Shown here: piece by piece, positions 23,628 to 27,762 of the stretch
Numbering within the stretch: the stretch's first letter is position 1
Layout: each line of letters begins with the position of its first letter
NCBI RefSeq assembly: GCF_002088975.1
Contig: NZ_NCST01000116.1
Coordinates: 62,001 to 126,000, forward strand
Direction: 5' to 3'
Length of the DNA: 64,000 nucleotides
Source of the DNA: Henriciella aquimarina
GTDB lineage: Bacteria > Pseudomonadota > Alphaproteobacteria > Caulobacterales > Hyphomonadaceae
The notes under the pieces: generated by a model
Seen by the model: the letters and a program-made list of their open reading frames with translations, nothing else
The model's database searches: none
What the model was told of the DNA's origin: nothing
Made by a program: the position numbers and the translations under genes

Positions 23628-26078
23628 ATGGCCCGGCCCAGCGATCTCCCCATCGAGCCCCTGCTCGGCGACATCTGCGCGACACTTCGCACAGAAAAGC
23701 GCCTCGTTCTGGCCGCGCCGCCGGGGGCCGGCAAGACGACCCGCGTGCCGCTTGCGCTCGCCGGCCTGATCGAGGGGTATGAGGCCCTGTCCGGCAAGAT
23801 CGTCATGCTGGAGCCTCGCCGGCTGGCGGCCCGCATGGCGGCCGAGCGCATGGCCGACACGCTCGGCGAGAAGACCGGCGGACGCATTGGCCTGTCGACG
23901 CGCATCGAGCGCAAGGTCTCGAAGGATACAGTCGTCGAGGTGATCACCGACGGCCTGTTCACCCGCCGCCTGCTGGCCGACCCGTCGCTTGAAGGCGTCG
24001 CAGCGGTGATCTTCGACGAGATCCATGAGCGCAGCCTGAATGCCGATCTCGGCCTGGCGCTCGCGCTGGAAACCCAGTCGGTCTTCCGGGAGGATCTCCA
24101 CCTGCTCGCCATGTCGGCCACGCTCGACACCGAGAAAGTTGCCGGACGCCTCGACGCCCCGGTCATCGAAAGTGAAGGCCGGCAATACCCGGTCGAGACG
24201 AAATATCTGGGCAAGACGCGTGAGCGCATAGAGGACCAGATGGCCTCAGCCATCGAGAAGGCGGTCCGCACCGAAAGCGGCTCCATTCTCGCCTTCCTGC
24301 CAGGCGCTGGCGAGATCCGGCGCACGGCTGAACGCCTTTCCGGCCTGCCGGGGGATGTCTCCGTTCACCCGCTCTTCGGCGCGCTTGGGCCCAGAGAGCA
24401 GGACGAAGCGGTTCGCCCGGCACCCGAGGGCCAGCGCAAGGTTGTGCTTGCCACCGATATCGCCGAAAGCGCGCTCACCATTGACGGGGTGCATGTCGTT
24501 GTCGATTCCGGGCTCACCCGTGTGCCGGAATTCGATCCGGCAAGTGGTGCCCAGGCGCTGCGCACCGTCCGCGCGGCGAAGGCGAATGTCGATCAGCGCC
24601 GCGGCCGGGCCGGCCGTCTCGGCCCGGGCGTCTGCTACAGGCTCTGGGACGAAGAAGAGACGCGCGGCCTGGTCGCGGCTCCAACGCCGGAAATCCTCAA
24701 TGCCGATCTCTCCGGCCTGATGCTGGCGCTGGCTGAATGGGGCGAGGACGACCCTTTCCGGCTCACCTGGCTCGATCCGCCGCCCAAAGGCCGAATCGAC
24801 GCGGCTCGCGACACACTTTCGGCCTTCGGGGCCATCGATTCCGCCGGCAAGCTGACAGACCGCGGCAAGCGCATGGCCAAGCTGCCACTGGCGCCCAAAT
24901 ATGCCAGCCTGATCGCCAGCGCCGAGACAGACGGCGAGCGCGCGCTGGCCGCGGAAATTGCAGCCCTGGCAAGCGAGCCCGGCGTCGGCGGGTCTTCCGC
25001 CAACCTTGTCGACCGGCTCGCCGGCTTCCAGCGTGATAACAGTCCGCGGGCGAAAGCCCTGAAGCGTCAGGCAGGCCGCTGGGCAAAGTCGGCCACGCCG
25101 GCAGGCGATCCGGCGATGCTTCTGGCCCGCGCCTGGCCCGGTCAGATTGCCCGGCGCCGGGACGGCTCGGCCACGAGCTATCTTCTTGCCAATGGCCGGG
25201 CCGGGGAAGTCCCGGCAGAGGATGTGCTGGCAAAGTCCGCCTGGCTCGTCGTCGCCGATATGGTCGGCGCGGCTGGTCGGGCGCGTATCACGCTGGCCGC
25301 CCCGATCAGTGAAGCCGACGTGCTCAACCTGCACCCGCCCGAAACCGCCGAATGGGCAAGCTTTGACCCGGCCTCGAAAGGCTTCAAGGGCCGGCGGGTG
25401 AAAGCCATCGGCAAGATCGTGCTCTCCGAAACGCCCCTGCCGCAGCCCTCAGGCGAGGCGGCCCGCACGGCATTTCTGGACTATGTCCAAGACAATGGTT
25501 TCGAGGCCGTCGGGCTGGGCGCCCCCGTCGCAGTATTTCTTGCGCGGCTACGCTTGCTGAACATGGCTTACGGCGAGGACTGGCCGGCCCTGGACGAAGC
25601 CGGTCTCGCCCGGACCGCCGCCGACTGGCTTGCACCGCTTCTCGGCCAGAAAGGGTTCCAGATGCCTTCGGACGGCGCCGTGCTGAACGCGCTGAAACAA
25701 TCCCTCGGTTGGCCGAAGGCGCAGGAAATCGACGATCTCGCCCCCTCCACGATGGCCCTGCCCTCGGGACGGCAAGCCCCGGTGGACTATCTCGATGACA
25801 ATGCCCCGCTCGTCGAAGCCAAGGCGCAGGAGCTTTACGGCCTCACGCGCCAGCCTGCCATTGCCGGTGGGCGCGTGCCGGTGACGCTGCAACTGCTCTC
25901 GCCGGCCGGCCGGCCGATTGCGGTGACCAAGGATATTTCAGGCTTCTGGACCGGCGGGTACCGCGACATGGCAAAGGATATGCGGGCGCGTTATCCCAAG
26001 CATGACTGGCCGGACGATCCGGCCTCGGCCAGTCCCCATGCCGGAATGACCAAGAAGCGGCTTAGTTCGGGCGGCTAG
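23628..26078 (+). CDS. hrpB: ATP-dependent helicase HrpB
   Basis: An 816-residue DEAH-type superfamily 2 helicase of unclear physiological role. Walker A APPGAGKTTRVPLAL (P-loop near 31-38), DEIH at 130-133, motif III MSATLDTEKVA, DIAESALTIDGVHVVVDSG and QRRGRAGRLGPGVCYRLW are all present. The HrpB-specific C-terminal half follows, including the late GGYRDMAKDMRARYPKHDWPDDP motif. ATG at 23628 is chosen by family length; a start at 23604 adds 8 residues and neither has a clear ribosome-binding site. The 3' end overlaps the convergent gene by 17 bases. Confidence 0.95.
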   Translation: MARPSDLPIEPLLGDICATLRTEKRLVLAAPPGAGKTTRVPLALAGLIEGYEALSGKIVMLEPRRLAARMAAERMADTLGEKTGGRIGLSTRIERKVSKDTVVEVITDGLFTRRLLADPSLEGVAAVIFDEIHERSLNADLGLALALETQSVFREDLHLLAMSATLDTEKVAGRLDAPVIESEGRQYPVETKYLGKTRERIEDQMASAIEKAVRTESGSILAFLPGAGEIRRTAERLSGLPGDVSVHPLFGALGPREQDEAVRPAPEGQRKVVLATDIAESALTIDGVHVVVDSGLTRVPEFDPASGAQALRTVRAAKANVDQRRGRAGRLGPGVCYRLWDEEETRGLVAAPTPEILNADLSGLMLALAEWGEDDPFRLTWLDPPPKGRIDAARDTLSAFGAIDSAGKLTDRGKRMAKLPLAPKYASLIASAETDGERALAAEIAALASEPGVGGSSANLVDRLAGFQRDNSPRAKALKRQAGRWAKSATPAGDPAMLLARAWPGQIARRRDGSATSYLLANGRAGEVPAEDVLAKSAWLVVADMVGAAGRARITLAAPISEADVLNLHPPETAEWASFDPASKGFKGRRVKAIGKIVLSETPLPQPSGEAARTAFLDYVQDNGFEAVGLGAPVAVFLARLRLLNMAYGEDWPALDEAGLARTAADWLAPLLGQKGFQMPSDGAVLNALKQSLGWPKAQEIDDLAPSTMALPSGRQAPVDYLDDNAPLVEAKAQELYGLTRQPAIAGGRVPVTLQLLSPAGRPIAVTKDISGFWTGGYRDMAKDMRARYPKHDWPDDPASASPHAGMTKKRLSSGG

Positions 26079-26487
26079 ACTCGCCCCAGTCCATGCCCAT
26101 CGTCCTCTTCATCCAGTCTGAGAAGGTGGCGGGTTTTTCGAGGTTTTTCGGATCCAGCGTGCCAAAGGCGACGGCCGGTCCCTCGGCGGTCTCGAGCCGG
26201 ACACCCGCGATTTGCTGATGCGGGTTGCCCCAATTGCCATGACTGGTCGCAGGATCGAGCAGCAGCATGATCTTGGTGCCACCGCTCCCGTCGGCCTCAC
26301 GGCCGAAAACGAGGCCGTAGACTTTTTCGCGCGAAAATCCGCCGGAATGCGCCTGGCGCTTACCATCCAGCAGGACCTCGTCCCAGAGGAGGTTCCGGCG
26401 CCATTGCAGGACATGCATCTGTTCATCATCGGTCACGATCTTGATGTCGACCTGATGGAGCGAAACGCGGACGAGTTCGGCACGCAT
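26062..26487 (-). CDS. Unknown beta-rich cytoplasmic protein
   Basis: The 141-residue protein has no signal peptide or membrane helix. Short strands rich in aromatic and charged residues (MHVLQWRRNLLWDEVLLDGKRQ, KVYGLVFGREADGSGGTKIMLLLDPA) and a C-terminal helix (FSDWMKRTMGMDWGE) are predicted. I do not recognise the family; a loose resemblance to FAIM-like beta sandwiches is not enough to call. AAGGA lies 8 bases before the ATG. A good promoter with a palindrome over the -10 lies immediately upstream, so it is probably regulated. It converges on hrpB. Confidence 0.72.
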   Translation of the reverse strand: MRAELVRVSLHQVDIKIVTDDEQMHVLQWRRNLLWDEVLLDGKRQAHSGGFSREKVYGLVFGREADGSGGTKIMLLLDPATSHGNWGNPHQQIAGVRLETAEGPAVAFGTLDPKNLEKPATFSDWMKRTMGMDWGESSRPN

Positions 26488-26506: not shown

Positions 26507-26545
26507 TTATTGAAAAACGATAAAGCGCGATCGACGACACGTCAA
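26507..26545 (-). promoter_or_regulatory. Predicted promoter and operator palindrome for the 26062-26487 gene
   Basis: On the minus strand TTGACG (26545-26540) and TATCGT (26522-26517) are separated by exactly 17 bases. The -10 lies inside TTATTG-N5-CGATAAA (plus strand 26507-26524), which matches the element at 18262-18279 in 16 of 18 positions with identical spacing. The predicted 5' leader is only about 20 bases. Confidence 0.55.
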
Positions 26546-26586
26546 GTGTCACCGGCGAGACCCGACGGTCATAAATCAAGGAAAGG

Positions 26587-26710
26587 AAAAAGCAGCGGGG
26601 CCCACGGCATGGAGGAGGAAAGAGGGGGACATCTGCCGCGCCTGATTGGACGGAAACCCCGCTGCGGGACACACCATCGCACCAGGAGCTGACGAGAAAC
26701 CGAACCGGAA
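26587..26710 (-). ncRNA. Candidate small RNA with an all-pyrimidine loop
   Basis: On the minus strand a 9-bp stem (26665-26657 with 26600-26592) is followed directly by five T (26591-26587), like a terminator. It encloses an inner hairpin: 26640-26635 with 26608-26603 (one wobble) and, after a 2-base bulge, 26632-26630 with 26611-26609. The inner loop (26629-26612) is 18 pyrimidines in a row and includes two anti-Shine-Dalgarno-like C/T runs. TTGACT and TTGACC (-35-like) lie at 26715-26710 and 26725-26720, but no good -10 is seen. The architecture recalls alphaproteobacterial sRNAs with CUCCUCC loops. The downstream gene has its own promoter, so this is not simply its leader. Confidence 0.42.
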
Positions 26711-26723
26711 GTCAAAAAAGGTC

Positions 26724-26761
26724 AAAAAAACAGGCCGCGCTCCTTGTCGGAGCGCGGCCTG
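26724..26761 (-). terminator. Rho-independent terminator of folE
   Basis: A perfect 13-bp stem (26761-26749 with 26743-26731) with a 5-base loop is followed by seven T on the minus strand (26730-26724). It starts 24 bases beyond the folE stop. Confidence 0.96.
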
Positions 26762-26785
26762 CTGAAAATCGGATTGAATCGGTCT

Positions 26786-27406: not shown

Positions 27407-27762
27407 GTCGGAATCCTGTTTCTGAGGGACGGGGGTCGAGCCAGATGTTCTGTGGGTGCGCCCTCCACACCCCAATACCGGACTTAAACGCCCGCCCGAG
27501 TTGTACCCTCAGGGCGTATACAGACACATAGGGCAAACGGATCATTTTTTCCAGAATTCCCTTATGGTGCCGCTGCGGAACGTTCCCGTCCGCAAGGCTT
27601 GGCGCCCGCGTCGCAGCATGGCATAAGCCGCAGCGACGAAAGGATGACTGGCATGGAAAACACCCGGCACACCTTGTGTTGTTGCCTGCGCTGAGGCACC
27701 GGAGCCATGCAATGGCCCCGCCCGCTCGCACTGTTTTTACTTTCCAGACCTAGAAGACTTTC
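27407..27762. other. Non-coding region between folE and cysS with several small hairpins
   Basis: I find no convincing gene here. Plus-strand stems include TGCGGA/TCCGCA (27574-27579 with 27589-27594), CGTCGC/GCGACG (27609-27614 with 27633-27638) enclosing a GGC-ATAA-GCC hairpin, and a short GCCAT/ATGGC stem near 27710. The region must hold the divergent folE and cysS promoters. It could be a structured cysS leader, but there is no specifier or antiterminator pattern that I can recognise as a T-box. Confidence 0.4.

Follow-up and report, generated by a model that had tools for sequence, protein, structure and literature searches.

The window, a 64,000-nucleotide stretch of the Henriciella aquimarina genome (G000; 4.34 Mb in 132 contigs), carries on its minus strand, in this order, folE, a terminator, a candidate small RNA (sRNA) and a gene for a 141-residue protein. 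The cysS gene is divergent from folE, and an hrpB-like helicase gene converges from the opposite side. The genes and the two borders of the candidate are as follows; L108 is the corresponding locus of another Henriciella species (genome G018).

folE: start about 27406, end 26786, minus strand; GTP cyclohydrolase I (PF01227)
folE terminator: 26729-26763, minus strand; upstream border of the candidate; L108 has its own terminator-like hairpin there, as judged by eye
Downstream-gene promoter, whose -10 side carries a palindrome: 26507-26545, minus strand; downstream border of the candidate; among the 14 orthologues aligned, all 14 have TTATYG-N5-CRATAA and TTGAC does not vary
141-residue protein gene: 26062-26487, minus strand; without a Pfam match

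An earlier sequence-only reading placed the candidate between a strong terminator of folE and a separate promoter of the downstream gene, and both borders are found: the terminator read at 26763-26729 is strong, and the promoter-like site at 26545-26517 (TTGACG-17-TATCGT) scores 9/12, with 0.5 such sites expected. That reading saw no good -10 element for the candidate itself, and the present search likewise found neither a -10 nor any recognisable promoter of its own.

The 141-residue protein gene is present in 26 of 29 genomes of the genus, mostly downstream of folE, and in 33 of 61 relatives; the 14 orthologues aligned for the palindrome were drawn from these 26. The palindrome (26507-26523) also occurs at many other loci of the genus, and at three of five further loci that were read it stands in front of a gene for a PhoR-like histidine kinase, as judged from the translations. 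It is probably the operator of some regulator. Elsewhere in the window the serC leader (RF00517; 50532-50584, plus strand, 61.2 bits) is the only Rfam match at gathering score.

The hairpin and its counterpart in a second species

Between the two borders the following features are recognised.

Conserved 60-nt block 5' of the hairpin, holding GACCTTTTTTGAC: 26672-26731, minus strand; it may be a promoter, a regulator site or the RNA's 5' part
Outer stem, 5' arm: 26657-26665, minus strand; GCAGCGGGG (26665-26657), from sequence and fold; CAGCGGGG kept in L108
Inner stem, 5' arm: 26634-26640, minus strand; from the fold; its GGCA part kept in L108
Loop pyrimidine run of 19 nt (TCCCCCTCTTTCCTCCTCC): 26611-26629, minus strand; open in the ensemble (mean unpaired probability 0.92); a 16-nt run in L108
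Inner stem, 3' arm: 26603-26609, minus strand; from the fold; TGCC kept in L108
Outer stem, 3' arm: 26592-26600, minus strand; CCCCGCTGC (26600-26592), identical in L108
T5 behind the outer stem, a possible terminator tail: 26587-26591, minus strand; from sequence; not kept in L108

The 9-bp closing stem followed by five T that had been described on the minus strand is there (26657-26665 with 26592-26600, then TTTTT at 26591-26587). The inner stem, said to enclose a loop of 18 consecutive pyrimidines, forms with 7 bp in the minimum-energy fold, and the run does lie in its 24-nt loop (26610-26633), its length being 19 nt and not 18. Chance occurrence was gauged by shuffling the window 200 times with its dinucleotide composition preserved and scanning both strands. 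One pyrimidine run of at least 16 nt was seen where 0.98 were expected, and one of at least 19 nt where 0.10 were expected. The candidate is the sole case in the window of a perfect, G+C-rich 8-bp stem around a run of at least 15 nt (0.1 expected), and none of the 200 shuffles contained such a stem and run together with a T-rich tail. The pyrimidine run by itself is thus only mildly unusual; the combination of stem, run and T-tail is striking. Thermodynamic folding, which the earlier reading had proposed as a check, favours the hairpin taken alone (z -2.2, 14 of 500 shuffles as good) and not the entire stretch 26582-26712, which folds no better than shuffled sequence (z 0.25, 116 of 200 as good).

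A diverged counterpart was detected in L108 by reading the spacers between folE and the downstream gene by hand. It lies at the same place, and the L108 spacer runs from the terminator-like hairpin through the alignable block to CAGCGGGGTCC-TT-GGCAG-loop-CTGCC-TC-GGACCCCGCTG and on to the promoter of the next gene. Local alignment of the two spacers scores 76, compared with 24.3 +- 3.9 and a maximum of 44 in 1000 shuffles. Most of this significance resides in the block 26731-26672, of which 42 of 60 positions are identical without gaps (the runner-up 60-mer in that 6.4-kb locus has 29), and which scores 48 on its own against a shuffled mean of 17.3 and maximum of 38. Since fourfold degenerate sites of folE and of the downstream gene are 56% and 55% identical between the two loci, the block is better conserved than silent sites. 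The block also retains two GAC units at a distance of 10 nt. The hairpin part alone reaches a similarity score of 43, below the shuffled maximum of 48, and its sequence similarity is therefore not decisive by itself.

The structure of the hairpin persists more clearly than its letters. The L108 hairpin folds far better than its shuffles (z -6.3, 0 of 500 as good), its loop region holds 16 consecutive pyrimidines with a mean unpaired probability of 0.87, and the stems and pyrimidine loop are retained although the loop letters differ. All 15 of 15 pairs form in both sequences, with two one-sided compatible changes and no compensatory change in this two-sequence comparison. MAFFT alignments disagree on the 5' arm, a short stretch pairing the arms and a long stretch not, which implies two offsetting indels. 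A conserved open reading frame over the candidate was not found between the window and L108. The proposal that the candidate is an independent unit accordingly gains from L108, where the architecture and the 5' block are kept at the same place, and loses with respect to the T-run as its terminator, since L108 has no T-run after the outer stem.

Searches beyond these two species returned little. With blastn against 61 genomes the spacer found its own locus; the other matches were short and weak (lowest E 0.0018), and many fell on the palindrome of the next gene's promoter. Similarly, the spacer of L022, from the same genome as L108, found itself and palindrome matches in 29 genomes of the genus, among the matches listed. 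A covariance model of the hairpin (R1), built from the two sequences of G000 and G018, gave convincing matches in just two genomes of each set searched (29 of the genus, 61 relatives, 105 of the family), always the two from which it was built. Weaker matches besides these were obtained in 24 of the 61 relatives (E up to 10), in 12 of the 29 from the genus and, with an E limit of 1, in nine of the 105 from the family. Six were read, and those read looked like chance: L094, L095 and L096 are coding sequence by eye, and L184 and L185 overlap long open frames. The sixth, at 1501-1560 of L093 (G044, from another family of the order), lies between genes and resembles the candidate in its hairpin, CTCTCTCTCCCCCC loop and T-run; its E value of 0.015 applies to a single genome out of the 61 searched, and its genomic place differs from that of the candidate.

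Applied to 30 loci, R1 gave only three matches, with E 1.1 to 2.1; the 30 included 17 (all but L115) of the 18 others that run from folE to the downstream gene. Reading by eye of the first 330 nt behind folE at the other 18 loci of the genus, where folE and the downstream gene lie 82 to 2108 nt apart, revealed no such element. The exact block pattern occurs in G000 and G018 only, among 105 genomes; allowing up to three mismatches brings matches in 46 of the 105, which were dismissed as noise, the 29 genus genomes giving 15 as against 28 for the reversed control. An element present in two genomes only is either restricted to a lineage or often lost. In a tree of folE and the downstream protein (19 rows) the window and L108 fall in an unresolved group, so that gain and loss are indistinguishable.

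The 5' leader of folE

A second structured RNA, far more conserved than the candidate, lies 0.7 kb away in the 5' leader of folE (27410-27516, minus strand). In a scan with 5-nt steps, 60-mers of the window and L108 agree at up to 55 of 60 positions upstream of folE, as against 41 in the downstream spacer. The core of the leader consists of P1 (CUGAGGG/CCCUCAG), whose 5' strand is followed by GGGCGGGCGUUAAGUCC, a P2 hairpin closed by CC/GG and very variable in length and sequence, CUCGACCYCCG and the P1 3' strand, with a purine-rich ribosome-binding site a few bases past the latter. An alignment of 25 rows shows pairs in 89% of cells at P1 and the base of P2; column shuffles give 85.4%, with none of 500 attaining the observed value, and sliding the structure gives 34-59%. 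Two-sided changes give a mixed picture: four pairs show them, 24 of 500 shuffles reach as many, and when the structure is slid by one column the number rises to five and the covariation score is higher too. The folding advantage of the window's own leader over its shuffles is slight (z -0.95). P1 is replaced in some distant genomes, for example by GGGGCGG/CCGCCCC in L200 and AGGGG/CCCCU in L192 and L204; a good P1 was not found in L047 (best 4 bp) or L202 (2 bp).

A covariance model of the leader (R2) was built from the 25 rows, and the best-scoring folE locus of each genome was counted. Of the 60 genomes with folE, 41 matched, from three families of the order, the 25 rows from which R2 was built being included in the count: 29 of 29 in the genus, five of seven other members of the family with folE, five of six in family f3, two of six in f4, and none of six in either f2 or f5. 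Three f3 loci outside the building set (L215-L217) match with E 6e-12 to 2e-10. A search of Rfam 15 found nothing over the leader, either in the window, with E values up to 10 admitted, or in eight loci holding the motif.

The only folE-leader class found in a literature search was THF-II, for which 86 representatives, from Rhizobiales or metagenomic sequence, were given in 2019 (PMC6800512). An Rfam search for an example in five alphaproteobacterial plasmid copies of folE returned none, and the Rfam set may lack a THF-II model. According to the structural account in PMC9881143, the pterin of THF-II is contacted by C22 and U44, the latter lying between C43 and A45-C46. At the 3' junction of the folE leader CUCG precedes AC, and G follows GUUAA; the pocket as that account gives it is therefore absent as such. 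The GU..AA opposite AC may nevertheless reflect a distant relationship to THF-II, and the leader is a candidate pterin- or folate-type riboswitch or other autoregulatory leader. Being strongly conserved, without an Rfam 15 match and placed before the gene for the first step of folate synthesis, it may be more consequential than the sRNA candidate, and it lies outside the Rhizobiales, to which the THF-II representatives named in the 2019 description were confined (PMC6800512).

Possible functions and comparison with known small RNAs

The best reading of the interval downstream of folE, to which we give slightly less than an even chance, is a lineage-restricted and independently transcribed intergenic sRNA of roughly 100 nt with a loop of the anti-Shine-Dalgarno (anti-SD) type. 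We infer a course of events in which the RNA would begin within the block 26731-26672, or shortly downstream of it, and terminate past the outer stem. On its two-part stem it would display the open pyrimidine loop, and base pairing between this loop and the purine-rich ribosome-binding regions of target mRNAs would hinder translation of the latter. Many messages could be bound by a general anti-SD loop, and selectivity would thus have to come from elsewhere. Apart from the candidate itself, a search of the genome for an extended target gave one site with three mismatches, apparently within coding sequence by eye.

Possible but unlikely, in our estimate, is a cis-acting role, either for folE, as a further terminator or a stabiliser of its 3' end, or within a long leader that the downstream gene would have if transcribed from an upstream promoter. 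The tandem gene layout and the stable G+C-rich hairpin with T5 directly behind folE in the window are what such an element would show, and in L108, without the T-run, transcription could continue into the downstream gene. However, folE already has its strong terminator upstream of the element in the window, and a terminator-like hairpin in L108, and the downstream gene's own promoter lies beyond the element; it is kept in all 14 aligned orthologues, among them those of G017 and G005, whose spacers are far shorter. Furthermore, the best-conserved part is the upstream block and not the hairpin.

That last feature would be expected if the block were conserved regulatory DNA, with regulator sites in 26731-26672, and the hairpin a non-functional by-product beside it. 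Most of the significant similarity indeed sits in the block, where the two spaced GAC units are kept, and the hairpin alone fails to exceed its null. This explanation is nevertheless quite improbable, given that L108 has the same stems and pyrimidine loop despite its differing loop letters, with a folding score that no shuffle equalled. A ChvI promoter within the block was considered and set aside, the Caulobacter motif TTGC-N3-GCAA as given in PMC9731502 being unlike the block by eye. A small protein gene is very improbable indeed: a 33-codon frame from ATGGTG, kept in both genomes, spans the hairpin, and longer frames of 59 and 68 codons overlap it, but the same ATG in L108 meets a stop at codon 6 and the alignment gaps are not multiples of three.

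The sRNA reading can be set beside several alphaproteobacterial RNAs. A full-text literature search for Henriciella and small RNA returned only casposon work. Like the candidate, SmelA075/SmelA099, cuckoo and CcsR RNAs are described as stem-loops exposing an anti-SD C/U motif (PMC3927594, PMC10253847); in SmelA075 and SmelA099, CCUCCUCCC is reported in three and four hairpins (PMC3927594). The candidate loop CCTCCTCCA differs from CCUCCUCCC, the motif shared by cuckoo, CcsR and SmelA075, by one mismatch; the motif is not kept in L108, which has CCCCCTCCC within a C-run, and in contrast to the several motif hairpins of those RNAs there is one hairpin in each of the two genomes. CcsR RNAs are also linked to a DUF1127 protein in the account of PMC10253847; PF06568 (DUF1127) had no match at E 0.001 in the H. 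aquimarina genome, the same search being positive in one of 14 control genomes.

GsrN of Caulobacter offers a likeness of another kind in its C-rich loop, which pairs with G-rich mRNA leaders (PMC5869019). As described there, GsrN is driven by an EcfG-type sigma factor, activates katG and is usually located near ecfG, nepR or phyR, C. crescentus being an exception to this proximity (PMC5869019). The four neighbouring genes of the candidate that were identified are folE, cysS, the hrpB-like gene and the 141-residue protein gene. EcfG-type promoters have the consensus GGAAC-N14-20-CGTT, for which the window holds no exact match, mismatches not being allowed, with 2.5 expected. AbcR-type sRNAs resemble the candidate in having a loop with at least a partial anti-SD motif, as stated in PMC3927594. 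They differ in that the candidate is without an Rfam match: Rfam 15 gave nothing at gathering score in the spacers of the window and L108, and the weak listings were far below it.

It thus appears, as the best reading, that the candidate would work like the anti-SD-loop sRNAs while belonging, judged by the comparisons above, to neither the cuckoo/CcsR group nor GsrN, and it stands as a sound but modest sRNA candidate. A broader proposal, that it represents an anti-SD-loop sRNA of independent and recent origin in two Henriciella species, unrelated to cuckoo/CcsR, and that the loop strategy has arisen repeatedly in the alphaproteobacteria, is possible but on balance doubtful. If expressed, the candidate would add a lineage-restricted regulator in Henriciella and a case of independently arisen loops that mask ribosome-binding sites.
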